64,000 bases of DNA from Echinarachnius parma (taxonomy: Eukaryota; Echinodermata; Echinoidea; Clypeasteroida; Echinarachniidae). The stretch lies in assembly GCA_037951105.1 (NCBI GenBank), contig JBAMJV010002963.1, forward strand, positions 1 through 64,000. Direction: 5' to 3'. Below the pieces are notes generated by a model. The model saw only the letters and a program-made list of their open reading frames with translations, was not told the origin of the DNA and did no database searches. Both the position numbers and the translations under genes were made by a program. This document shows, in pieces, positions 21,301 to 52,054 of this stretch. Every line of letters starts with the position of its first letter. Within the stretch, counting starts at the first letter, position 1.

Positions 21301-22963
21301 TGGATTATAAAGATGGAATATGGATATATATATTATTAGACAAAACATAGATTGACAGGTATAAACTCCACAATAAAAAGCTACTAATAAAATATGGTTG
21401 TCGTGCTAGAATGCAACAAAACTCAATAGCAATTATATTAGATCCTTGGAAGGATGAAAATGTGACAGAATATATTTCACACAGGCACCATTTAGGAGGG
21501 GTGTATAATTTGTAACAATTTTCTACCAAAATAGCATACAACAAGAACAAGGTATGAGGGAACCACTAGAATTCCAATTGGATATTGAGGATTTGGACAA
21601 TGTTACTAGATCCATTTAACAACTGGAGCCTGCCATATACATGTAGACCAAATACATTCAAATTGTGACATGTTTTGAAGGAAACAAGCAAATGGTTTGG
21701 GGGGAAGATAGATTCCAACACCAGTCGTGATAATTTCATGCTTAAAAACAAAAAATGTTATCACTGGAAGTGATTTAAATTTCACCATCCTTGATCAAAC
21801 AAAGGTATACCGACTTGTAGAAATCTACCCACCTAAAAGTCTGTCATACAATGCAGCTCAATTGCATTCCAGCTTTTGTGCCTGTGCAGGTCTCACCAGA
21901 TGTAACTATTTTATGTATTAATTTCTTTAAATTCATATTATTTAATTCAAATCAAAGCAATTTATAAACAATTTTAAAGGGGTAGTTTAGTTTTGGTAGA
22001 GAGGGCGCTGCACATCACAATTTTTTTGTGAGGTAATGACAAACTGAGTTTCGAATTTGAGAGAACATGCAATTTTAATGGCAGAATAAACTTTATTTGG
22101 TCAAAATCGACCCAGAAACGGCTGAAATATCAATAAATATATCTGATCTTATAATTATTTGGGGCCCAAATAATTAGATGATTTTTAGAAAAAAAATTTA
22201 AAATGCTTGCACTGTTTCAAACATTTTCAAAAGCATTTTTTAAATAGTTGTTGATGATCTCGCTATTTAATCATTATAGCAATAAAACATCACATGCATA
22301 ATTTTGTATGAAAAATGGTTGAAACCAATGCCTTTTTAAAAAGCGCCCTCTTGTGTTTTAATGGCTCTTTTTGAATGATAACAGGCTTTTTACTTCGTCG
22401 TTTGTAATTTTGTATACCTTACGAGCATGGTGGAGTTATAACTATTTGTTTATAATGTTACTGTGCATGTTTTGGCTACTAAAGTTCAGCCTTACCAAAA
22501 CTAAACTACCCCTTTAATCAAATGGAATAAATTCAATTCAAAATTGTAGAAACCCTGATTTACAAAGGTAAACAAGTAGAAATCTACCCACCTGAAAGTC
22601 TGACATAGCTTGACTGAATTCCAGCTGTCGTTGTTGCTGTGCAGGTCTCACAGGTCCAGGTCCAGGTCCAGGTCTAGGCCCAGGAACTCCTTGAGGTACT
22701 CCTGCCATGGCTGGGACTGGTTGCATGCCAAACCCAGGCTGCCCAGGATAAGTAGTGAATGCAGGGAAGGGTCCTGGCTGACCCATAGGTTGGAACACTG
22801 GCTGGACCATGGGCTGGGCCATGGGCTGGGCAGGGTACGGTTGATGCATACCACCAGGGGATCCTGTCACATATTGGATTGTGCTGACTGGAGTTGCTAC
22901 TATGGGAGGGTTGGAAGTCGACTTCTTCTTGTTGTTTTTCTTGCCTCTGGAGCTGGATGCCAT
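12300..22963 (-). CDS. CUEDC1: CUE domain-containing protein 1 (whole coding span, 7 coding exons)
   Basis: CUEDC1 is an adaptor-like protein with a ubiquitin-binding CUE domain. Seven minus-strand exons (22592-22963, 19681-19845, 19201-19272, 18535-18819, 17473-17677, 13740-14045, 12300-12379) join in phase with GT-AG borders to give about 494 residues; the human protein is shorter (about 386). In order: a basic Ser/Lys-rich start, a Pro/Gln/Gly-rich stretch to about residue 110, and a CUE domain at about 114-157 with the MFP motif (126-128) and the di-leucine (153-154) that contact ubiquitin in this family. Then come a PPPY motif (189-192), a Ser/Pro-rich region, a helical block ending IALMLQNEEFLTQLQ, a Pro/Ser-rich linker, and the conserved FRNKLNHMGK block followed by a basic tail. 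The block order and C-terminal motifs match vertebrate CUEDC1. The C-terminal exon is the least certain part, and upstream non-coding exons were not firmly found. Confidence 0.9.
12495..12705. repeat. 'GGGGCGGATCTAGCC' repeat with G tract
   Basis: CAGGGGCGGATCTAGCCTTT at the left and CCGTAGATCCGCCACTGAC at the right, like the SINE/MITE tails that end 'GTGGCGGATCTA', with a run of about 18 G and CGGCGAAGTCCGAGCCGC inside. It overlaps a non-coding open frame. Confidence 0.6.
12797..12954. mobile_element. MITE 'TGGCCCATTTCATAAAAC'
   Basis: About 158 bp; left TGGCCCATTTCATAAAACTT, right TTTCATGAAACGGGCCA, and inner arms ACAATTGTTGTAAGTGTCC-type text mirrored as GGACACTTACAACAATTG. Non-coding. 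Confidence 0.72.
13163..13480. repeat. 35-bp minisatellite, about 9 copies
   Basis: Unit CCTTTGACCAAACAAGTGAT then CATTGACCACCATTC. Copies are nearly identical; the main variation is AAACAAGTG versus AAACTAGTG (the latter in copies 4 and 6-9), with AAAAAAGTG in the first. Lies in CUEDC1 intron 6, about 260 bp below the exon 6 donor. Confidence 0.93.
13740..14045 (-). CDS. CUEDC1: CUEDC1 coding exon 6
   Basis: Encodes the rest of codon 367 through codon 468, plus one base. Begins DYEEALHDTSRRGGTAAS, continues through a Ser/Arg/Pro-rich stretch, and ends REEIEFRNKLNHMGK, matching the conserved FRDKLKHMGK block of vertebrate CUEDC1. Acceptor TAACTTGGCAG, donor GCAAAT|GTAAGT. A family-B MITE (14065-14370) lies 20 bp upstream of the acceptor, close enough to overlap the branch-point region. 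Confidence 0.92.
14065..14370. mobile_element. Family B MITE, internally deleted
   Basis: TTAAAGGTATAGTTGAGTTT to AAAACTCAACTATCCCTTTA, about 300 bp, roughly half the usual length. It begins 20 bp upstream of a CUEDC1 acceptor (exon end 14045). Confidence 0.72.
14804..16608. mobile_element. 1.8-kb non-autonomous DNA transposon, hAT-like
   Basis: Bounded by TAGGGATGTTAG and its exact complement CTAACATCCCTA (12-bp TIRs), with GTTCAAG repeated on both sides (14797-14803 and 16609-16615). TAGGGATG-type ends and 7-8 bp duplications suit hAT elements. The interior has no transposase frame but holds degenerate repeats around CCATGGCAA and TTTCTTTGTTTTTC (15830-16250). It sits in CUEDC1 intron 5. 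Confidence 0.8.
17473..17677 (-). CDS. CUEDC1: CUEDC1 coding exon 5 (conserved helical block)
   Basis: Encodes residues 299-366 plus one base of codon 367. Starts ELAREAQQISRGIKERL and ends IALMLQNEEFLTQLQHNPEF, closely resembling the IALFLQNEEF block of vertebrate CUEDC1. It looks strongly helical and charged. Acceptor TTATTTGTAG, donor AGCG|GTATGT, phase 1 at its 3' end. Confidence 0.92.
18333..18505. mobile_element. Family C MITE fragment in CUEDC1 intron 4
   Basis: Keeps the right half, with TGCTCATTACTCAG-like text and AAAGTTACTAGATCCCTTTA next to TTAA. The left end is lost. Confidence 0.6.
18535..18819 (-). CDS. CUEDC1: CUEDC1 coding exon 4 (Ser/Pro-rich linker)
   Basis: Encodes 95 residues (204-298) between acceptor ATTGCTTTGCAG and donor CAACAA|GTGAGT, phase 0 at both ends. 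Very rich in Ser, Pro, Thr and Arg (for example SRFPSTSPSANSTASRRQS), so probably disordered and a likely phosphorylation region. It also holds an acidic/hydrophobic patch, LPSDFLGLSLSES. A family-C MITE ends about 30 bp past the donor. Confidence 0.87.
19201..19272 (-). CDS. CUEDC1: CUEDC1 coding exon 3 (PPPY motif)
   Basis: A 24-codon exon (residues 180-203) with acceptor CCTTGTAG and donor TCGCAG|GTAAAT, phase 0 at both ends. It contains QPPPYSPPEP, a PPxY motif of the kind bound by WW domains of NEDD4-type ubiquitin ligases. Because its length is a multiple of three, it could be skipped without a frame change. Confidence 0.85.
19318..19658. mobile_element. Family D MITE, left-truncated, next to a CUEDC1 donor
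   Basis: Matches the right three quarters of 9870-10285 (ATGCAATTAATTACCACC, TGAACACATCT, GGTGGTACCCTTTAA). It ends about 22 bp from the donor of coding exon 2. Confidence 0.65.
19681..19845 (-). CDS. CUEDC1: CUEDC1 coding exon 2 (CUE domain core)
   Basis: Encodes residues 125-179. It begins RMFPKMDRVVIETVLRSNGG and carries the CUE signatures: MFP near the start and DQLLKL in the third helix. The acceptor is TTTCATGCAG and the donor ACACAG|GTTAGT, both phase 0. A TTAA-flanked MITE relic ends only about 20 bp beyond the donor. Confidence 0.93.
20087..20402. repeat. Repeat 'CGGGGGCTACTTTT', tandem-like copy
   Basis: Several GGGGGCTAC/GGGGCTCTTTT units on both sides of a short A/T-rich spacer, ending CGCCCCCGTGTATTTTTTTC. 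Non-coding. Confidence 0.6.
20875..21175. repeat. Repeat 'GGGCAAGTAAA'
   Basis: GCACTTGCCCGGGGCAAGTA, TCGGGCAAGTAAAATTC, GGTTGCCCGATTGGGCAACT and TTGCCCAAACGGGCAAGTAG: the motif occurs in both orientations. Related text at 44985-45180, and short matches at 18195-18215 and 20505. Confidence 0.6.
21975..22516. mobile_element. Family B MITE in CUEDC1 intron 1
   Basis: TTAAAGGGGTAGTTTAGTTT at the left and AACTACCCCTTTAA at the right, with the family inner block AAGCGCCCTCTTGTG. Its right end is about 75 bp from the donor of the first coding exon. Confidence 0.72.
22592..22963 (-). CDS. CUEDC1: CUEDC1 coding exon 1
   Basis: Encodes residues 1-124. The start at 22963 begins MASSSRGKKNNKKK in a good context (ATGG). 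An in-frame ATG lies upstream at 23020, but the sequence between looks untranslated and has possible 3' splice sites just before 22963, so the inner start is preferred. The exon is rich in Pro, Gln, Met and Gly, with an imprecise GPGPG run, and ends LEFSQAMSDFQ, the first helix of the CUE domain. The donor is CAG|GTGGGT, phase 0. Confidence 0.88.
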
Positions 22964-25890
22964 ATTGATTGATTTCTCTGGCCGTCTACAGGTCCAGATG
23001 ACAGTTACCGTACACCACACTAAATAATTGTTTGTAACTCCAATGTTATTTCATGATATCCTTGACCTTGGGCACACACCTTTAATAATGCATCTAAATT
23101 CCAAGTTCCTTTCAATAACAAGGCAAATGTGACAAGCTATTTGGAATGCATGCACTGACGACAAAGACACTATACTATTGCTGGGCGTTAAAATCAATTG
23201 TACCTCTGATGAAAGTTCAGATGTTGTTGTGCTTATCATCTTTCAATGAACTCCCATTCCATGATGCACATGCTGGATACTTTCAGACTAATTTTGAAGA
23301 CCTGTGGAAAATATGAGGGGAAAAGCAGAAAATATGAGTCTTTATTGTAGTGCTCACTCAAGCGACATGTACATGTCGGAATTGGATAATAACTTATAGC
23401 TTAATAATAATGGAAAATGACATGTTTCCACCACTTTAAAAGCCTTGTGACTTGTTTATAGCCCCACCTATTAATATTTGTGATTGCAGTGGCTTGGCAA
23501 ATGATGTCATTTCAGGCTGAAGTTGCAACAGGTACACATTAATGTTGGTACAGGACAAAATGGAAATTGCATAAATATCTCAAAGCAATTTATATAATAT
23601 TGCATCTTTGATGAAAACTTCACCAATATCTAGTAAAAAAGTCAGTTGGTATTAAACAGTGTGATATTTTCACCCAATTTTCATACTGGGTGATATTTTA
23701 GTTACATTTTTTTTTCATTTTGACTGCGCTACTTTACACAATACTTCGCAGTTTGTACTTAGCATGAAAAGCAATGACCTTTGGTCCAACAATGTACACC
23801 AAATAAAGGCTTTTCAGTAGACCATGAACAAAAAAACTAGCATTGTTCGAGGAACAGTCTACGATTTATTATTCCGAGCAGTATTAATACACAAAACTGC
23901 TGCCTGCCATTTAAATGCTAACTGCATGGTTGTACAATACATACATGTACATTAGTCTACCTTTTGTGACACAAATGGGACACATGTATTGTTGGAATCG
24001 TGATGTTGTAGAGAAAGATATTATATACCCAAATTAAGAGATTACTACATATACTGTACAAGTTAAGTGGTTTTGTAAAAAAAAAAGACAAATGAACATT
24101 CTAAACATTAGCATGTTTTATGGTTTATTTCAGTCTATCCTTGCAATATATTCACTCTTGATTTGTTAGACATAAATCAAGCAAAATATATAAAGTAACA
24201 GTTAATTTTTGTTTTTAGAGTGAAGGTTAGATAATTCAACATCAATAACTTGTGCTAGGGTAACAGAGGAATACATTAAGCGCTGAAGAACCTCTCACTG
24301 TGTACATGTACAGGGACTACAGTATATCTGTTTTACGCTTCGACCAGTGAAAATGTACATGTATGTCTGTCTGTGTCTGTCTGTGTCTGTCTAGAGGAAA
24401 TTGGTATATTTTAGAGTAGGCCACTGCATATCTTTCATTCCATTTCATTTGAGCATTTATTCCGATTCAAATTAAAATTGAAAAATACATGATTTCAAAG
24501 ATTCATATATATACAATAAAAACCATTAAACAAAAATTACAAAAGCATTACGAATATTTACATGAACGGCATAACAAAATAACACACACATAGAAGAAGA
24601 GAAATGAAAGCAAGATTTACAATTATGAACCATTCAAACAATTTGTTAAAAGAAATATTAATTAATAATTTCAGAAAGGGGGGACAATTAAAAGCCATAA
24701 AGAGGCTTGATAAGTTTCGTGCACACCAGATTATTAATTTTTTCATAAGTTATAACTTTAAAAGTATGGCAAATCAAATGGTCTTTATAAAATAATCATA
24801 ACATAATACCTAAACAATTACTAATATAGAAACAACAATTGAGGTTTTATAATAGGTAAAACATTAACATACATAATTAATATTGAGTACTTTAATTAAA
24901 TATCTTCAGCATGTCTTGATTTTATTCACAAAGTAACTAGATAATTAACATGGGTATAATGATTTTTAGGTTGAGAAATATACATTATTCAAGAAATATA
25001 AATGTATGGTATAATTTGTATACAATAAAATGTGGAATTTGTTCACTTTTTTGTTTTTAATATACGCAAGCTAAAAGTGAACTAATATATATATACAGCT
25101 TCGGTTTTTTCCTATATTTAAATAATTGCACAGAATAATCATAAATTATTGAAAAGGAAGAAATAGTAGCGTAGCTGTAAACAATGTTCCTCCCTTAGCG
25201 CCTCCAAATGAAAAAAAGGCAAATATATATTATATATTAGGTTGGTTGCATGTAATTTTGTTAGTTTATATATTGACAGTCAACGTTGTCTGAATCTTGC
25301 CAGTTGTTCTATATCTGGGCAAGATGAGTATAATCCTGTTTGATCTTTGTTTATGAATGCCCTTTAAAACATTATTTGATTCAATGTTCAGGTCCCAGAC
25401 TTTTTAATTTTGTATTTTATAAACAGCCTTGAAATTTATCTTCAGAATTAGATCAACAATTTTCCAGGAAATGTGACAAGAGTGGCTGCTGATTAAGTCA
25501 TCAATGGATTTCCAGGACTCCCCCAAATTATGATGCTCTGTCCTTTCAGACATTGAATTTGATTAATTTTGAGGCCTCTTCCCAACAATTTTTTGTTTTT
25601 AAAAATTGATAATAAGTACTGAGGGTTATGTATAAAATCAGTAAACTTTAAAACATAATATATTGTTATAAAATGCAAATGTAGTGAAGCTATTAAACTG
25701 TGGCTCGATACGTACCGACCTGAATTAATTGGGGCAAGTTAACATTCTTCTGCCAAAAATATAGCTTAGTTGTTATTTTTGTAAATTTAGAAAGAAAAAA
25801 AAGGGTATACAACAATGTATGATTGTTAAAAGTTATATACAATTTTGTTTTTCAATGTTCAGCTCTCACCAAAATGTTAAACACTGGTTC
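22964..25890. other. CUEDC1 upstream intron or flank, no coding sequence seen
   Basis: AT-rich stretch with only the 24362 microsatellite recognised. 5' UTR of CUEDC1 must begin just above 22963, and a 3' splice site (TGGACCTGTAG) lies about 30 bp upstream of the start codon. Confidence 0.45.
24362..24393. repeat. GTCTGTCT microsatellite
   Basis: (TGTCTGTC)-type tandem, about four units of TGTCTGTCTG. Confidence 0.85.
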
Positions 25891-26839: not shown

Positions 26840-27239
26840 ATAAAGGACATTGAAACCCAAGCAATTGAGCAAAATTTTGTTTTCATACTTCATAGGCTCT
26901 AAGAGATTAGGAGGAATAATCTCTGAAAGTTATAGCTCATAATTTGGCAAGAAACAAGAAAACTATGGCTCTTTGAAGAAGTTAATTTATTTCTATGGAG
27001 AACTCAAATTGTATATATGTTTTCATTGTTTTGTACAAAAATATTCAATAAGTTTTTCTTCATACTCACACTTTTCCATTCCCCAAACTCATTTGAGTCA
27101 CTAAATAAAAATAAATGCCTATTTCGAAAGACTGAGCCATAGTTTTCTTATTTCTTGACCGATCGTGCTCAAACTTTCAGAGACTGTTCTTCCTATTACT
27201 GAATAGTGCAAACAATAGTGCAATGAATTGTCAAAAGTA

Positions 27240-27792
27240 GTGCTGTAACTGACCTTGATGATCGGATCGTTTGATCGGATCGGCAAAATTTTATCGATCT
27301 TCGAAATCGGATCGATGATCGGGATCGGATGATCGGCTATAAAAAAATTTAAAAAAAATTAATTTAAAAAAATAAATTTAAAAATTTTTTTTAAAAAAAT
27401 CGTTTTTTTTTTCTTTGGAAAGTGATCCCCAAAAAACACAATTTGTGAATATAAATGAATACCAAAGCGAATATCCATATTAATAAGCCCAAGGTAATCT
27501 TGTACGGGTATGCTTTCATTTCAAACTGATTACCTCTTCTTTTACAAAATTACTCACGCCGATTTTGAGCTTAGTCCCATGTGATTAATTTGGCGTAACC
27601 TTTCAGAAACACATGGGACTAAGCTCAAAATCGGCGCGAATAATTTTGTAAAAGGAGAGGTAATCAGTTTTAAATGAAAGCATACCCATACAAGATTACC
27701 TTGGGCTTATTAATATGGATATATGTTGCTTTGGTATTCATTTATATTACCAAAATATGTTTTTGGGGATCATTTTCCAAAGAAAAAAAAAC

Positions 27793-27833
<41 letters not shown>

Positions 27834-27960
27834 CGATCCGATCTTCCGATTTTTTCTGCATGATCGGAAATCTGCAAAAACGGTCCGATCATGTATGATC
27901 GGATCGTGATCGGCATGCCGATCCGATGATCGGTTACAGCACTAGTCAAAAGTTTCATCA
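27240..27960. mobile_element. Palindromic 'AGTGCTGTAAC' element, intact copy
   Basis: About 700 bp between AGTGCTGTAACTGACC and GGTTACAGCACT. Arms are rich in GATCGGATCG; a T run of about 33 bases lies at 27797-27830 and the centre is a near-perfect inverted repeat (CGCCGATTTTGAGCTTAGTC and its complement). No coding potential. It serves as the empty-site reference for the nested insertion at 47939. Confidence 0.8.
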
Positions 27961-44700: not shown

Positions 44701-47700
44701 CACAAGTCACAAGTCAACTATGTATTTTCAAGCATTTACTGTATTTGAATGGGTTGAAATGGAATCATGACAAACGATTTCTCAATCTCCACTCCATCAC
44801 CACCTCCCGTCACTCCTTTGCTCGCCTCCCCAACCGAGTAGAGCTGACCAATTTGGTACTGGAAGGTGCAAAGAAAACAAAATTATGCTTCACAAGTCAC
44901 CCTGTTTATTTTCAAGCGTGTATTTGAAAGGGTTGAAATGGAAACATGAGTCATGACCAAGCCTCCACACTAACTTTCTCTACTGGCCTATTCGGGCAAG
45001 TCAAATCATAAATATTCAAACTTTACTTGCCCAAACAGACAATTTACTTGCCCGCTTACTTCTAGATGAGATTTTCATGTAAGGAACTAAATTCTATTCT
45101 CGTACAGTAGTTGAAGAGAAATTTAAATTGCCACATCGGGCAAGCAAACTAGACCATTTATGAAATTTTACTTGCCCGACATCAACTTTGTTGACTATTT
45201 GATGTACATTTTTGTCATATTTTTTATATTAATTTTTCTATTTATTTTTTCTACCTGCTCAGCTTCACCCCTGGAAAACCCTGCCAGAAGCTATTGTCTT
45301 GACTTCTCTGACCTCACAATACCATTCCATCAGTCAGCTAGATGAACAAAAGACATTTTTGGATAAGCCAGCTCATTCCTTTATATGGTTTCTGTTATTT
45401 TGATAATTCCTTATCTGTATTTCTTAGTTGAAGGATCAATTCACAATTAATTCACATTCATGTTATTTGCTTTTCAATTTTCTTCAATGCATAATTCTAC
45501 ATTTCTTTAGTGCTAAAAATAGGACCATTGTGTCAAATGGATTCTATACAGCTTTTGATACAGACCTACATTATCCTTTATCACGTCCAGACAATATTTG
45601 ACCACGATAAATACACTTCAACATTTGATAAGGATAAAAATACTAACAGAGATAAGGACATTCATAAACAAAACAGTTCAATGTGACCTACGATGTACAC
45701 TCACAGAGAGTTACGGTGGACATTGCTATTCAAAGTGTATTCAATCCATGTAATGTACAAAGTCTAACAAATGTATCACCCATGTATCCCACAGTGGTAT
45801 ATTATATTCAGTCTGAGCCTTAATTGTTTTGCTTGCTAGGGGGCCATCTACAAAGTTTGTACGCAAATTATTGTCCGAAAATGACCCCCCCCCCCCCCCC
45901 CCCCTCCCCCCCTGTACACACTTTGTATGCATGTGGATGAATGTAGAGTATGCATCAGTTTGAACCCCCCCCCCCCCCCCCCTCTTGTGCATACATACTT
46001 TGTAGATAGCCCCTAGAGCAATCATACTTGAAAAAAAAAATTACGCCAAATAATGTACTTCCATTAATATAATTTTGCAAAGGGAGAAACAGCACCTGTA
46101 CTCATTAAAAAAAAGTTCCCGACATTGATGCACATCAAATATTGCACAGCGCTCATTCAATATGTTAATAGTGAGTTGGATATTAATTCTATGTAAAGTG
46201 TGTGAAGTGTTCTGTTGCGTGTTGGTATTACGTCTCCTTGTTGCTTGTCATACAGTGTAGATAAGTTGTGCAAACAGATTATGAACAATCACAGAATGAG
46301 CAATCAAACTCGATCAATCTCGGACTAGGGGGGTGTTTCACACAGATCCTAAGTTGAACTTAATAACTCTAAGTTGGACTTAAAATTTATGGAAAGTCAT
46401 TTGTAGCCTTAAAATAAAATATATTCAAAAGCAAAAATGCAAAATATTGTAGAATTTGTATACGTTTTACATCGATAACATGAAATCCCCTTGATAATAG
46501 AACATATCAATGATTTTAATCAACATTTATTTGTATGGCTTTTAGAAGAAATTTTACAAAATTGTTTCAAAGAAACTAGAGGCTTTCCATAATTTCTAAG
46601 TCCAACTTAGAGTTAAGTTTAACTTAAGATCTTTGTGAAACACCCCCAGGGTAATTGTTCCTACTTTTATAACATGTTTTTGTACAGATTTACATTGCAG
46701 AAACTCAAATAACTAAACTATGATTATTAAGCCAGAGAAAAACCTCTTTCATCCAGTTAAGTCATCTATTTGTAAACTATTTGTTTGGCTTTAAATGGCT
46801 TAAAATCATTACTTCATCTAAAATTGCTTCCATTTTTATAAAATACTAATCACTCAGACATGTGTTGGGCCAGAGATTAAATCAGCACAATCATGCTGAT
46901 TCACTGACCCACCTATAAACCTCCCACGCCAGGGCACGGTAAAGCTAATGACAGCAAGTTAGTGGATGCAGATATAATGCTCAGAAACCAATAGAATCAC
47001 AGCCAGAGTCATAATGGTTTTTTTTTTTCTACTTATAAATTTCATTGAAAGCGCAGTGATGGCTATTTATTTGTTCAAACTTAATTTTGGTGGCCATCAT
47101 TTCCAATAGAATGTCTTCTATTTGAGACAAACCAGACATGGATATCAGTAGATGTCTGGTCGATGACTGAATCAGTGTAATCAAGCCGATTCAATGAAAC
47201 CCTGCAACAATACAGTATTGGTCAAAATTAACTATCCCCCCTAACGTTTGTGTGCAGTAATCCATATTGATTTGTACACATCAATAGGGATTACTGCAGA
47301 TTACTGCAGTAAACTGGATAGTTTATTTTGAGTGATACTGTAGGTTTAGTCTGAATGAAATTCTTCATAGTAATCTGCATTAATTAGCTTTAATAAGGAA
47401 TAAAACAGAAATGAATAAACTTACCTCCTCTACTGTCAGGGGAAGGAGAATTCGACTGTAGAGATAAAAACAAAGAACAGTATAAGTGTACAGCATAGCA
47501 GCATTTAATTCAAAATTGTTTCTGATCACCAAATTACTATGCACATCTGAAGAGGGCTTTAAGCTTGTTTTTTTTTATTCAGGTGGCCAAATGACACGTC
47601 AAATACTCCCATCATAGACTTGTGCGTTGTAGATCTTAATTTAGTGCTGTAACCGATCATCGGATCGGCATGCCGATCACGATCTGATCATACATGATCG

Positions 47701-47752
47701 GACCGTTTTTGCCGATTTCCGATCATGCAGAAAAAATCGGAAGATCGGATCG

Positions 47753-47796
<44 letters not shown>

Positions 47797-49942
47797 GTTT
47801 TTTTTCTTTGGAAAATGATCCCAAAAAACATATTTTGGGAATATAAATGAATACCAAAGCAACATATATCCATATTAATAAGCCCAAGGTAATCTTGTAT
47901 GGGTATGCTTTCATTTAAAACTGATTACCTCTCCTTGAGGGCAGGTCCAAGCTAATGTCCCCCTTGATGGTGAACATTCATCTTCATTTTAGCTTTACAA
48001 ATTTGGTATCATTTCAAAGCTAAAAGTCTGAAGTTTAGATTTTTAGTACAGAAATTTGCATAATATGCATATTTAACGAGTAGTGAGCATCGAATTTGCA
48101 TATTTCAAATATTAGCGTGACGTACGGGACATTGTATTTCTATTTTTAATTTTAATTTTATCAATCAAGCTTTAATTTCATATATGGGGACTAGTAAAAC
48201 TAATCACTAGCAATAGTTGACCAAATTTTTAAGTTTCAAAATTAATTAATTATGCTAATAAGGGCGTGTCCAAACTGCAATGTCCCGTACGTCACAAAAA
48301 TGAACACCTTTTTTTATATTTTAGTATGAAACACTGAATTTTTTTCTTTCATATTTTGTGAAGTTCTAATTTATCATACTCTTGACTGGCTAGCTAAGTT
48401 TTATGAAAACAGCATTTTTCGTTTTGATTTTATTAGCTAATTAAGACATGTGACGTACGGGACAAAAGTGTGACGTACGGGACATTTTCAGTGTTAAAGC
48501 AATGGCAAGCCAGGTGAAAATTATTTGTTTTGTGTTTTACCACTGATTATCATAATAATTCTTGCTTAGATACTCTTAAAAATTTCAGAATAAATAGGTC
48601 TTACCTTTAGGAGTTACCTCTAAAAGTAATTACATAATTACCACATCATACTTCGCGTTATAGCTACATACTGATGAAAAATGTGTCTGGAGGGGGAAAT
48701 TTGAAATACCTCATAATTACCTTTAAATAATTATTTAAAATACTAGACAGTCAATTTGAGTAGGGAAACTGCATGTCAATGAAGGAAATATAGTATTACA
48801 TTGGTTCAGTACACCGAGACCTTCAAACAGGTTCAAAAACTGCAAGAAAGTGCTAAAAAGGCACACAATATTTTTAGTTTTTCTTCTAAATAGTCCCATG
48901 TGTAGGATTTCATGTAAGTTGCCAAATTTATGATGATTCTGTTTAATTTTCTCATATTAAAATCTTTTTTGTCAATATTGAAAGTAATTTACATCAGATA
49001 GATGTATCCCACATCTTTTGAAGCCAAATCAAATATTAATTCTTAATTAGTAATTAGCATAATTAATGCAAATTATCGGATTTCAGAGCTTCAATTTGTT
49101 AAAGTCTTATTATAATGTATTGCGGAAGCTGTTTTTGAGTTTTAAATCATCACAATATTGAATAAATACAATTAGAACAAATATATTGCAAAATGGACCC
49201 AAAGATTTAAAAATAAAAGCAGGAAAATGACAAATAAAACATGAGGGAAAAATGTCCCGTACGTCACATGTCCGTACGTCACGCGCATACCTATTTTCTT
49301 TCATTAATTATCAAGGGATAAAAGGTCATAATTTTTTTTTTTTTTTTTGCAGTGCGTATATTAATGGTTACTAAATGCATATATCAGGAATAAGTTGTTA
49401 TCTGCCATGTAGATTCAGAGAGTTTTCACAATACACATTTTTTTTTTAAGTCATAATTTCTCTGGTCCCGTACGTCACGCTGCATATTTATTAGCATAAT
49501 TCAATTTTAACGAGCATTTTGAATATTTTTTTTTGCATTTTAGGAAGGGACTACAAGTAGCTTTCCAAAGCACCAAAAAAATTCCAGATCATAGCTCCTT
49601 CCTTTGAATAATATTCAATTGAAAGCTGTGAATGTCCCGTACGTCACAAGTCAAATAGCTTGGACCTGCCCTTTTACAAAATTATTCGCGCCGATTTTGA
49701 GCTTAGTCCCATGTGTTTCTGAAAGGTTACGCCAAATTAATCACATGGGACTAAGCTCAAAATCGGCGTGAGTAATTTTGTAAAAGAAGAGGTAATCAGT
49801 TTGAAATGAAAGCATACCCGTACAAGATTACCTTGGGCTTATTAATATGGATATATGTTGCTTTGGTATTCATTTATATTCCCGAATTGTGTTTTTTGGG
49901 GATCATTTTCCAAAAAAAAAAAACGATTTTTTTTTTTTTTTT

Positions 49943-49991
<49 letters not shown>

Positions 49992-52054
49992 GCCGATCAT
50001 CCGATCCCGATCATCCATCCGATTTCGAAGATCGATAAAATTTTGCCGATCCGATCAAACGATCCGATCATCAAGGTCAGTTACAGCACTATCTTAATTC
50101 TTTGGTGATCAATACAAGAGTTTCTACTTTCTAGTGACCATTGGCACCCAGGCCACTGCTAAGGCTGTCATGTACATGTTCATTCTTTTTCATCTCAGAC
50201 TCAGGAGCTGGTTATGATCTACTTTAAGCCCTCCGCACACTACACGACCCGACCCGATCCGACGAACCATTCAGTATCTGAACAATACTACATCCATGTA
50301 ATACGCGCGCATGGCTTTAGTTCAGATACTCAGTTGTTCGTCGGATCGGACTCGGATCGTGTAGTGTGCGGTGGGCTTTAAATTATCTTCAGAAGTGTCT
50401 TTAAATAGACAAGTAGTATGCATGTAAATCGCTAAACTGAGTATTTGGTAAGGGTGCTCTTTGTACTTCGGTGAACATATGTGGCCACCTTGCTCAACCA
50501 AATTATGCAAAATATATGATTAGGGTTGAAATATAGCATGATTTCCGAAGGTTTTTATTTCATGACAGTACAGCCCTTGATGTGACTGTCAGTTGATTTA
50601 GGTTTGGGCCCACTAGAAGTTGACAAATCTTGTTTTTACTTGCCCAACTGGGCCACAAGGCAAAAAGGTTAATTTCTAGCATTGTTATAATAAACCCATA
50701 ATTTGTCTAATATTGGAAATCATAAATACAATATAGTTTTGGCTACTTCCTGATCGAGTGTAAACCTGTGTACAGTGAACACCTACATGGGAAATAAAAA
50801 TAGTGACCATTTTGTGACAGATGAATGTGATACTATTACATAACATTGCTTTTCTCTACAGGGTATCACTTTTGGTGGCCACTAAAGGCAGGTTGGCTCC
50901 TGTAAACAGGCGACTGCTAAAAACAAGTTTGACTGCACATTCTTTGCAGATGATGACTTATATCTCAGTCATACAGTCGCTAAATACAAAGTATCCCAAG
51001 GCTATTAGCTAATCATGAATACAATGCGGTCTTACACAATGTTCAATTGTTCAGCTACAATTAATTTAGGTCAATGGCAACATCAACAAAGTTACCTCAT
51101 TTAAAGTATATAAGATTATTCCGAAAGTGACATTTGAGAATTCAATCAGACCAATATCATTGCACGATTCTTCTAAATGATGTGCGACAGTTAAAAAAAA
51201 AAAAATATCTAAGTTCAACTTCAAGCATTTTTGTCAAAATATTAAGTTTAAAATGAGTTACACTTGTCTTATTCTTAATTCTTATTATTTGGGAAATGGA
51301 ATTGTGTGAAGTCAATCCCTATGAATTTTGATGAAGATATCAAAGACACAAACACAGGAATTTTAATTCACATATATATACGAATAGACTATTTTAACTG
51401 ATCTTCAAATGAAAAAGAGAAGTTAATGTACAAATGACACATAATTTTATTTTTATTTTTAAAAGCAAATTAACGTAAACAAAACAGAAAATGAGACAAA
51501 ACAAAACATTCAATTCAAGATTGTTGACGTTGTGGAGTTGCAAATTGCAATAGCGCCCCATAGATGTAAATGATCCTAGTTTACATGTAACATGTAATTT
51601 AGACTTTAGTTTGGATGTAGCCCACGGCCACCCACGCCCGATCCGATCCCGCGCCCACGGTCACGGGCAAGGCCCGGTATAAGATTCTGCCAGTCACAGA
51701 CACTGGTCACTGGGTGACTGGCTACTGGACTAATATATCAATGTTCATTTTAAGCGGATATCCTGTAGTGGTTCCGGAGATCACTTATGCGCACAAAATG
51801 TCGCGCGAATTGTACTCTTCGTCGTTGATACACTTCCAGTGTTTGAAGAATATGCAAAATGTCTAATTCATCGAGTATTCTTAGACTTAGTCATCGGGCG
51901 TGTACCAGTATAAGTTTGGTAGCGAATGAAGTTTATTATGTAAACATTTAAACAAGAATGAAAATATAAACATCGCACAATTCATAATATTATATTAATT
52001 TAGCAATAAATGCACAGGAATAGATGAAACTTACAATTCTTTCAAGAGTGGCAT
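36177..52054 (-). CDS. PITPNA/PITPNB-like: Class I phosphatidylinositol transfer protein (whole coding span, 10 exons)
   Basis: Soluble START-like protein that moves phosphatidylinositol and phosphatidylcholine between membranes and supplies PI for phosphoinositide signalling. Ten minus-strand exons join in phase with GT-AG borders into a complete 277-residue protein (mammalian forms are 270-271). It begins [17 protein letters not shown] and keeps the family landmarks: SVAEAS and THKIYHL (T67, K69), E94 and N98, the PI head-group residues equivalent to mammalian T59, K61, E86 and N90; C103 in [22 protein letters not shown] with the Trp pair (206-207) used for membrane docking; and [11 protein letters not shown]. 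An insertion of about nine residues before THKIYHL (around residues 47-64) accounts for most of the extra length. The absence of further domains after the lipid-transfer domain and the C-terminal helix make it class I rather than RdgB type. Single-copy A versus B assignment is not meaningful in an invertebrate. Confidence 0.96.
36838..36960 (-). CDS. PITPNA/PITPNB-like: PITP coding exon 9
   Basis: Residues 220-260, [20 protein letters not shown] then [32 protein letters not shown] and the charged C-terminal helix match mammalian FHRQLFCWLDKW...TMDDIRRMEEETK. Acceptor TTTGTTGCAG, donor GAAAAG|GTAGGT. Confidence 0.97.
37563..38017. mobile_element. MITE 'CATACCTGCCAACATTTGAA' in PITP intron 8
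   Basis: Left CATACCTGCCAACATTTGAA with GTCCTTTGCGGCCGGGGTCC inside, right GACTGGTTGGCAGGCGTG. Centre is T/A-rich (TTTTATTTTTTATTTTTT). Confidence 0.72.
38745..39020. repeat. CAT-CGT-CAC-CGC trinucleotide/hexanucleotide microsatellite in PITP intron 8
   Basis: Long (CAT)n run with interspersed CGT, a unique spacer at 38834-38886, then (CATCAC/CATCGC)n and again CAT repeats. About 100 bp above the exon 8 donor. The poly-Ser reading frames in it are not coding. Confidence 0.93.
39117..39212 (-). CDS. PITPNA/PITPNB-like: PITP coding exon 8
   Basis: Residues 188-219, [20 protein letters not shown] then [12 protein letters not shown]. The MCAYKL and KFKWWGLQ blocks are nearly invariant in class I PITPs; W206-W207 match the membrane-docking Trp pair. 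Acceptor TTTCTTACAG, donor ATGAAT|GTAAGT. Confidence 0.97.
39945..40095. repeat. Repeat of the 2765 family, inverted, in PITP intron 7
   Basis: GGGCTGAGGGTGATTTTGCG at the left, TAGCCCCCTAAAATAAAAAC and ATTAATTCCTGCATT at the right; nearly identical to 63520-63678. Confidence 0.75.
40154..40231 (-). CDS. PITPNA/PITPNB-like: PITP coding exon 7
   Basis: Residues 162-187, [20 protein letters not shown] then [15 protein letters not shown] is a class I signature around the phosphorylatable Ser-166 region of mammalian PITP. Acceptor GTTTTGCAG, donor TGGAGG|GTAAGT. A repeat of the 'gggggctactttt' family starts about 60 bp past the donor. Confidence 0.95.
40610..41852. repeat. Tandem array of about 145-bp units in PITP intron 6
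   Basis: The unit GACCTTTGACCTCATGACCC-CAAAATCTAATCAGATCAT then TACATACATGTACCAAGTTT and GGTCAGAATCCGTCAATCC recurs with starts near 40910, 41060, 41208, 41354, 41496 and 41639. The array opens with ACTAGATGGATCTTCGACTG and closes with ACGGACGGACGGACAA and CTTCGTTACGGAGGCATAAA. A short, more diverged copy of the same element is at 5998-6592. Confidence 0.82.
41907..41987 (-). CDS. PITPNA/PITPNB-like: PITP coding exon 6
   Basis: Residues 135-161, [20 protein letters not shown] then NDPVSSS, matching the VYIDIAD block of the family. Acceptor TCTCTCTAG, donor TCTAGT|GTAAGT; phase 0 at both ends. The tandem 145-bp repeat array (40770-41860) ends about 50 bp beyond the donor. Confidence 0.95.
42210..42252. 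repeat. CATTCC short tandem
   Basis: CATTCCCATTCCCATTCCCA then TTCTGACCCATTCC. Confidence 0.6.
42576..42653 (-). CDS. PITPNA/PITPNB-like: PITP coding exon 5
   Basis: Residues 109-134, [20 protein letters not shown] then SGQSEN, matching the family block NEYMKEDFLIKIETWH. Acceptor TTTTTCAG, donor GAAAAC|GTAAGA; phase 0 at both ends. Confidence 0.95.
43137..43236 (-). CDS. PITPNA/PITPNB-like: PITP coding exon 4
   Basis: Completes Ser-75 and encodes residues 76-108: [20 protein letters not shown] followed by [13 protein letters not shown]. Holds E94 and N98 (head-group contacts) and C103 (the mammalian Cys-95 position). Acceptor GTCTTTCAG, donor ATAACG|GTGAGT. Confidence 0.96.
43350..43872. 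mobile_element. Repeat element with ATATCCG/CGGATAT arms in PITP intron 3
   Basis: Left AAGGGCTGAGTCC-like start with ATATCCGTCCGATATCCGAC and GGTCGGTTACCGGAT; right GGATATCGGATATATCCGAA, AACCGGTTGTCAAAATACCC and ACTACAGCCTTA. Ends suggest an AAGGCTGTAGT/…-type border resembling the AGTGCTGTAAC elements in general design. Boundaries approximate. Confidence 0.5.
43979..44368. mobile_element. Family D MITE in PITP intron 3
   Basis: GGGGACCACCAGGCAAAAAA at the left, TGATATCAAATAGATGCCCA inside, and TTTTTGGGTGGCG at the right; the terminal TACCCTTTAA has decayed. Ends about 120 bp from the exon 3 donor. Confidence 0.65.
44489..44661 (-). CDS. PITPNA/PITPNB-like: PITP coding exon 3
   Basis: Residues 18-74 plus two bases. 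[20 protein letters not shown], then the insertion-bearing loop and [13 protein letters not shown]67 and K69 are the equivalents of the PI-contacting T59/K61 of mammalian PITP alpha. Acceptor ACCGTCCAG, donor GAATC|GTAAGT. The 5' half of this exon and adjoining intron is duplicated about 197 bp upstream (see 44781-44965). Confidence 0.96.
44781..44965 (-). pseudogene. Tandem partial duplicate of PITP exon 3
   Basis: Intron 2 holds a second copy of the acceptor and the first 24 or so codons of exon 3, plus about 100 bp of the adjoining intron, 197 bp from the original. Its acceptor (CACCTTCCAG) is intact and it reads [20 protein letters not shown] then DGVE in frame, with one Ala-to-Gly change, before running into copied intron sequence. 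There is no donor at the matching place, so it looks like a pseudoexon; splicing into it would add a premature stop. Confidence 0.88.
44985..45180. repeat. Repeat 'GGGCAAGTAAA' in PITP intron 2
   Basis: TATTCGGGCAAGTCAAATCA, ACTTGCCCAAACAGAC, ATCGGGCAAGCAAACTAGAC and ATTTTACTTGCCCGACATC; same family as 20875-21175, opposite order. Confidence 0.6.
45841..46016. mobile_element. MITE 'GGGGCTATCTACAAAGTATG' with C tracts
   Basis: Opposite-orientation copy of 11696-11856: GGGCCATCTACAAAGTTTGT at the left, TACTTTGTAGATAGCCCC at the right, and C runs of about 28 and 17 where the other copy has G runs. Confidence 0.72.
46328..46647. mobile_element. Family A MITE in PITP intron 2
   Basis: GGGGGGTGTTTCACACAGAT to TTTGTGAAACACCCCC, about 320 bp; centre aligned but in opposite orientation relative to the other copies. 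Confidence 0.82.
47425..47455 (-). CDS. PITPNA/PITPNB-like: PITP coding exon 2
   Basis: A 31-base micro-exon encoding the end of codon 7 and [10 protein letters not shown], the first beta strand of the fold. Acceptor TCTCTACAG, donor GAGGAG|GTAAGT, phase 0 at its 3' end. It is 4.6 kb from exon 1, across an intron that holds two nested transposons. Confidence 0.94.
47644..50094. mobile_element. Palindromic 'AGTGCTGTAAC' element, split by a nested insertion
   Basis: Ends AGTGCTGTAACCGATCATC and its partner GTCAGTTACAGCACT, with GATCGGATCGG-rich subterminal zones, a poly-A/poly-T block in each arm, and a central inverted repeat around CACATGGGACTAAGCTC. The same element is intact at 27240-27960. 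Here the two halves are 47644-47938 and 49672-50094. Confidence 0.82.
47939..49671. mobile_element. 1.73-kb non-autonomous transposon with eight internal GTGACGTACGGGAC motifs
   Basis: Begins GGGCAGGTCCAAGCTA and ends with its exact reverse complement (16-bp TIRs). It interrupts a palindromic element whose empty site can be read from the copy at 27240-27960 (CTCTCCTTTTACAAAATTA), proving insertion. The target duplication is short (2 to 4 bp around TT). Inside, the motif GTGACGTACGGGAC occurs forward at 48117, 48450 and 48470, and reversed at 48282, 49254, 49465, 49634 and, one base short, 49270. No transposase-sized open frame is present. Superfamily not recognised. Confidence 0.85.
50227..50378. 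mobile_element. Palindromic MITE with CACACTACACGA arms
   Basis: Left arm AGCCCTCCGCACACTACACG then ACCCGACCCGATCCGACGAA; right arm mirrors it and ends GTAGTGTGCGGTGGGCT. Shares the CCCGATCCGAC core with 4319-4539, although the outer ends differ. Confidence 0.72.
50400..52030. other. PITP intron 1, 5' part, no gene seen
   Basis: AT-rich, with one 'TGTAAACAGGCGACTG'-type repeat fragment at 50847-50940 and a short GC-rich patch (CCGATCCGATCCCGCGCCCA, about 51640). No exon recognised. Confidence 0.45.
52035..52054 (-). CDS. PITPNA/PITPNB-like: PITP coding exon 1 (start codon)
   Basis: Twenty coding bases: MPLLKE plus two bases of the Phe-7 codon, then donor AATT|GTAAGT. It joins exon 2 to give [17 protein letters not shown], close to the mammalian start MVLLKEYRV with the same intron position. 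The 5' UTR must lie just above 52054. Confidence 0.93.

Follow-up and report, generated by a model that had tools for sequence, protein, structure and literature searches.

A young non-coding transposon family of Echinarachnius parma with subterminal arrays of a 14-bp motif, predicted binding sites of a mobilizing protein

Results

The window analyzed here comprises the first 64,000 nucleotides of contig JBAMJV010002963.1 of the echinoid Echinarachnius parma (assembly GCA_037951105.1, forward strand). It contains a 1733-bp element with exact 16-bp terminal inverted repeats (TIRs), whose longest stop-to-stop frame is 73 amino acids. Seven exact copies of the 14-letter motif GTGACGTACGGGAC and one clipped copy lie in the window, every one of them within the element (Table 1); a search allowing up to two mismatches returned seven matches, all exact, where 0.05 are expected from shuffled sequence. 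A preliminary description had proposed an element with these ends, no transposase-sized frame and three forward and five reversed motifs, one of them clipped, and had judged a chance origin unlikely; all of this was confirmed. Its observation that forward motifs lie on the left and reversed ones on the right holds for every site except site 2, which is reversed in the left half.

Table 1. Features of the element and of its insertion site in the window
Feature	Position	Strand	Basis or remark
Host foldback, TIR TAGTGCTGTAAC, 8-bp target-site duplication TCTTAATT	47642-50091		holds the inserted element
Second foldback copy without the insert	27238-27944	-	empty site
Left target-site duplication, TTGA	47935-47938		taken as changed from TTTT; paralogous empty site
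Non-autonomous TIR transposon, subfamily A copy	47939-49671	+	TIRs, motifs, 96-99% identical copies in its own genome
Left TIR, GGGCAGGTCCAAGCTA	47939-47954	+	exact; 281+278 exact genome copies, reversed control 0
Half-site ATGTCCC adjoining the left TIR	47955-47961	-	A/B alignment; TTGTCCC in subfamily B
Motif site 1	48117-48130	+	exact
Second conserved block, TCAAAATTAATTAATTATGC, without motif	48236-48255	+	A versus B 20/20
Motif site 2	48282-48295	-	exact
Conserved block, GAAGTTCTAATTTA, without motif	48360-48373	+	A versus B 14/14
Motif site 3, inner pair	48450-48463	+	exact
Motif site 4, inner pair	48470-48483	+	exact
Motif site 5, inner pair	49254-49267	-	exact
Motif site 6, 13 bases	49270-49282	-	lacks one base in this copy, complete in the family majority
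Motif site 7	49465-49478	-	exact
Motif site 8, 25 bases from the right end	49634-49647	-	exact
Right TIR	49656-49671	-	exact inverted match to the left TIR
Right target-site duplication, TTTT	49672-49675		empty site; family duplication of 4 bp

The genome of this species (1.2 Gb, 14,790 contigs) was then searched. The exact TIR occurs 559 times (281+278), and its reversed pattern does not occur. The motif occurs 2020 times (1017+1003) against 13 (6+7) for its reversed control, an excess of about 150-fold; of 100 motif places listed, 96 fall in an exact TIR or no more than 4 kb away from one. From 614 candidates of a DNA search, the 40 best were scored; these are 96-99% identical to the window element, and as the best were chosen, they lean toward young copies. 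Thirty-nine places were read with their flanks. The copies read share the ends and, for the most part, the number, order and orientation of the motifs, which refutes the possibility, raised in the preliminary description, of a local accident. The 37 full-length copies, including that of the window, differ by 0.3-1.2% from their majority sequence, indicating a recent burst, and in this majority sequence all eight motifs are exact, the clipped site being whole. The element is thus one member of a young, high-copy, non-coding TIR family. No match to it was found in plasmids, no match to the combination of TIR and motif or to motif pairs in viral contigs, and none to motif pairs in prokaryote genomes. 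The literature matches listed for three decamers of the element included none on transposons; this search did not extend to Repbase and Dfam.

The element lies in a host foldback that is present a second time in the window without the insert. Both foldback copies have the same TIR, 8-bp target-site duplications (TSDs; TCTTAATT and CTTTTGAC), long A/T runs and an inner hairpin, and the foldback appears hAT-like, judged by the length of its TSD. The empty site reads CTCC-TTTT-ACA and the filled site CTCC-TTGA-[element]-TTTT-ACA, which we interpret as an insertion accompanied by the duplication of 4 bp, the left duplicate having probably been altered since. Across the family the TSD is 4 bp long and exact in 46 of 56 distinct insertions, with one base off in seven and two off in three, the window included. 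This count is based on 59 rows less L045, which lacks a left TIR, and L012 and L034, whose flanks are the same as those of other copies; L097 was not entered. The pooled target sites show a palindromic preference, TRT-WNNW-AYA. Inverted ends, a TSD of constant length, an empty site, many copies and the lack of coding capacity together characterize a non-autonomous cut-and-paste transposon.

In subfamily A, to which the window copy belongs, the sites lie about 179, 344, 512 and 532 bases from the left end and 25, 194, 390 and 406 from the right end. When ends in the loci read were counted as distinct by their 14-base flank (the end of L088 being unclassified), the first two sites, each with at most one mismatch, were found at 66 of 71 distinct right ends, and the second site lies 169-170 from the first in 64 of these 66. 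Because a motif near the tip was one of the criteria that distinguished right from left ends, the constancy of position 25 is partly by construction, whereas that of the 169-170 interval is not. Thirty of 58 A-type left ends carry the sites exactly at 179+, 344-, 512+ and 532+, seven more at 179+, 344-, 513+ and 533+, and the others have sites shifted or lost. The inner motif pairs have grown to at least three tandem units in L100/L102, L101, L103, L104 and C7151:56995-57047; the expanding unit measures 20 bp on the left and 16 bp on the right, and some copies have one unit fewer. Beside site 2, GGGCGTGTCCAAACTG at 48262-48277 resembles the TIR with 4 of 16 bases mismatched and might be the remnant of an old internal end; the same score is reached at three places in the window outside the element, and the likeness may be due to chance.

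Diverged relatives carry the same array, which indicates that the array belongs to the element. All eight sites recur in subfamily B, of about 1.93 kb, with their order and orientation as in A. Between the A majority sequence and the B copy L092, 112 of 112 motif bases are identical, compared with 311 of 499 non-motif columns in the left 560 bp and 192 of 374 in the right 430 bp (51-62%); good alignment is confined to the end regions, and the center gives 302 of 709 identical in a forced alignment. The right-end sites at 25, 194, 390 and 406 are common to the A majority, L092, L093 and L090; in the other B copies read the inner right pair is one base off, and the left sites of B copies are 0-4 bases off those of A. 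Between A and L092 the net shift is zero in all four right-end intervals, where about 16 indels are expected. This expectation (16.5 on the right, 42 on the left) was calibrated on 35 young copies, without L012 and L034, and is rough, since it derives from 4 and 10 events.

The comparison with the closer subfamily A' gave a similar result. A and L099 agree in 112 of 112 motif bases and in 1327 of 1598 other bases (83%), and CpG bases are kept at 35 of 35 positions in the motifs compared with 14 of 25 elsewhere. All five gaps are interior (positions 699-1262), and the non-coding interior is itself shared, with 586 of 745 aligned bases identical. Not all sites are kept in the A' copies L082, L095 and L097. 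As had been expected of a functional part of the element, the number and orientation of the motifs are conserved together with the TIRs, and the motif outlasts the divergence of the remaining sequence.

A more distant relative, C (L104), is about 68% identical to B at its right end, has the first two right sites at 25 and 195 and shares the block TTCTCTGGTCCCGTACGTCACG. The C-type TIR, GGGCAGGTCCGAGCTA, occurs at five places. The 1.35-kb C interior was found only on C8286, C10098 and C14480, 98-99% alike, among the best 40 of 533 candidates. This low-copy interior (L104:195-1480) includes a G+C-rich stretch and a splice-donor-like GTAAG, and may be part of a longer element. Copies derived from B on C6995, C12094, C5843 and C2797 consist of B 1-891, or nearly so, and 1269-1938 with tandem units of about 180-185 bp between them, and C4224, C7633, C7533 and C2602 match this arrangement in part.

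Variation among the young copies was also determined. In 37 sequences, 4 of 2821 non-CpG motif bases were changed compared with 397 of 58,994 elsewhere, and 11 of 1283 CpG motif bases compared with 28 of 925 elsewhere. A segregating-site test on 36 sequences, L012 being left out, gave p = 0.009 for non-CpG and p = 0.055 for CpG positions, and a combined stratified p = 0.002. No segregating site was found in the 32 TIR bases.

To find a source of transposase, 20 regions were taken from the first 100 listed of the 559 TIR places, 19 of them running from TIR to TIR and one open-ended (L097). Five were B elements, two of which have extra interior sequence (L089, L090). Most others were A or A' elements with inserts that were identified in part, among them a long interspersed nuclear element in L079. 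L078 and L084 have different flanks, yet both are interrupted at one position by an insert containing 156-bp tandem repeats, which suggests that the interrupted element itself moved. Twenty scanned frames had no match to a Pfam transposase family. Patterns designed to exclude the A and B interiors or contexts gave 1, 7, 4 and 3 matches, and those judged appeared to be variants of A, A', B or C. The motif preceded by a purine, a context absent from the eight sites, has 10 genome matches against 4 in the control, which is near chance. Eight frames in the part of the C element that was read, which stops short of its left end, matched nothing in Pfam. The best 40 of 611 candidates of a B search included long B-like places at C2122:16458-22735, C5843:58827-65408 and C2602:19138-23291, which together with the low-copy C elements are the most promising candidates for an autonomous copy. 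A longer autonomous relative with the same motifs, which the preliminary description had suggested looking for, was not found among the places and frames covered.

On C6134:70465-74495 (L100, L102), two minus-strand frames flank a B element. One of them, just outside the right end of B, is P-like, matching Pfam TNP-like_RNaseH_N, and a search with it gave 56 matches in the genome; the other frame has no match. We do not favor this P-like transposase as a partner of the family, as the P element has an 8-bp TSD and as five of the contigs with P-like matches (C701, C779, C916, C1050 and C1057) fall in the part of the TIR search that was listed, the first 100 of 559 places, and hold no exact TIR.

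Elsewhere in the window, a 170-amino-acid frame rich in P, Q and G (22538-23050, minus strand) may resemble the start of an animal CUE-domain protein; it has no Pfam or PDB match.

Discussion

Our results suggest that the array contributes to the movement of the element. We consider it probable (about 0.68) that the element is a non-autonomous cut-and-paste transposon whose subterminal arrays are predicted binding sites of the protein that moves it. Since A and A' share a non-coding interior, the array has been retained in elements that encode nothing, which argues for a role in cis in mobilization; and since the motif and, nearly so, the distances stay constant while the remainder drifts, the sites are probably the handles used in moving the element. 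Made in trans, a transposase or else an accessory DNA-binding protein encoded by an autonomous relative would bind both subterminal arrays and pair the ends of the element. Cleavage would then take place at the GGGCAGG tips, the ends would be joined to a palindromic target with a stagger of 4 bp, and copies that lose sites or spacing would be mobilized less, so that the array stays intact. The preliminary description had read the motifs as internal sites bound by a transposase: that they are a functional part of the element is borne out by the motif outliving the divergence around it, while binding by a transposase is what we infer from this pattern.

Several observations weigh against this interpretation. 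The window copy and, for example, L030, L032, L033, L037, L043 and L044 are without at least one exact site and are nevertheless present in the genome. Site 2 is the sole reversed motif among the left sites, making the left array an imperfect mirror of the right one. When CpG context is ignored, the segregating-site test is non-significant (p = 0.14), and a placement test gave 0.066. Genome patterns, the search with the P-like frame and Pfam scans of frames in the loci read revealed neither a transposase linked to the ends nor an autonomous copy, with 100 of the 559 TIR places listed. Finally, when the inner left-end repeats of the hAT element Hermes were changed, about 70% of activity was kept (PMC10368747), a precedent by which repeats of this kind need not be essential.

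Alternatively, a sequence-specific protein of the host, such as one of the ATF/CREB kind, might bind the array and help or restrain mobilization or open chromatin. The motif does contain TGACGT, half of a CREB site, as the preliminary description had pointed out, and the other AT-rich conserved blocks could be host sites too. The site of a host protein would be expected elsewhere as well, but the 14-mer is rare outside the elements (2020 copies against 13 for the reversed control, nearly all listed ones in or close to an exact TIR) and is near chance level after a purine, and we regard this explanation as unlikely. Still less likely is that the array was the promoter or operator of an autonomous ancestor, kept in deletion derivatives by recent origin and not by selection. 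In known elements, arrays of this kind can have a second, regulatory function, and A and B could stem from two autonomous lineages. Yet A and A' share their non-coding interior and differ at 17% of non-motif bases and at none of 112 motif bases, and the motif has changed less than its surroundings among the young copies; such retention would not be expected of a regulatory region whose gene is lost, because the A and A' lineages make no protein. That the motif was duplicated by chance in one element is highly improbable: the expansion of the inner tandem units indicates that some motif copies do arise by local duplication, but A, A' and B all carry the same array, and C shares its first right-end sites.

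For assignment to a superfamily, the family was compared with known groups of transposons. CACTA elements have CACTA-type termini, and the TSD of En/Spm is 3 bp. The present family resembles maize En/Spm in its subterminal motif arrays, which in the latter are TnpA binding sites, but its termini are GGGCAGG, which speaks against CACTA/EnSpm, and its TSD is 4 bp. For the CMC group, TSDs of 2-4 bp are given (PMC4482050), and TnpA of Spm provides a precedent for subterminal sites (PMC9921582). hAT elements such as Hermes and Tol2 share asymmetric subterminal repeats and end requirements reaching far beyond the TIR (PMC10368747), but their TSD is given as 5-8 bp, and the 4 bp observed here speaks against hAT. 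The Hermes repeats are moreover 4-bp AAG(T/C) units (17 and 14) placed tipward, unlike a 14-bp word at fixed intervals.

The P element, with a TSD of 8 bp, is disfavored by this length. Kolobok and piggyBac have the target TTAA, and the TSDs of the family, which vary within WNNW, speak against both. Ginger termini are of the TG...CA type and those of IS481EU are given as TGT...ACA, in contrast to the GGG termini here. These five candidates (hAT, CACTA, piggyBac/Kolobok, Ginger/IS481EU and P) are thus disfavored because TSD or termini do not match. MuDR has a stated TSD range of 4-10 bp, at the edge of which the family lies, and TSD length alone does not decide against it. Sleeping Beauty and mPing differ from the family in their TSDs and in having either direct repeats close to the tips or no specific motif in common; their internal sequences beyond the tips recruit transposase or tune mobility (PMC9921582), as is proposed for the family.

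The features seen are compatible with Sola-like or PHIS-like groups. Sola elements have 4-bp TSDs, TIRs of 11-1124 bp and variable termini (PMC10741241), and one Sola2 family has the AT-rich TSD AWWT (PMC3627910). Sola is defined by a DDD transposase, which was not seen here, no search with a Sola profile having been made, and the Sola passages mention no comparable spaced array. TWA is a TSD found within PHIS (PIF/Harbinger and kin). The PHIS groups (Harbinger, NuwaI, Pangu and kin) are compatible because of termini starting with GG or GGG, usually GGG in NuwaI (PMC4482050), and of one statement that PHIS TSDs measure 0-4 bp (PMC10045372). The 4-bp WNNW of the family fits neither TWA nor the short specific TSDs given for the named groups (ANT, CWG and C-TNA-G).

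Subterminal arrays are known in DNA transposons; the variant seen here consists of a long exact word whose spacing is almost constant to the base and close to nucleosomal. The intervals between sites are 165 and 168 bp on the left, and 169 and, to the inner pair, 196 bp on the right; as a suggestion only, these values may be near the length of one nucleosome. The ends might then act as a ruler whose sites keep their spacing to within a few bases, the transpososome of an undescribed superfamily with a 4-bp TSD assembling on nucleosome-sized loops and reading chromatin, an idea that we consider speculative and rather doubtful.

For elements that encode nothing, comparison alone can reveal the bases needed for mobilization. 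Here, with up to about half of the remaining bases changed, the 14-bp word and its distances hardly vary, which maps the transposon end with unusual clarity. The array offers a direct test of spacing, possibly nucleosome-sized, in the pairing of ends, and if the transposase is found, its long, multi-copy, specific site could serve as a recognition system.
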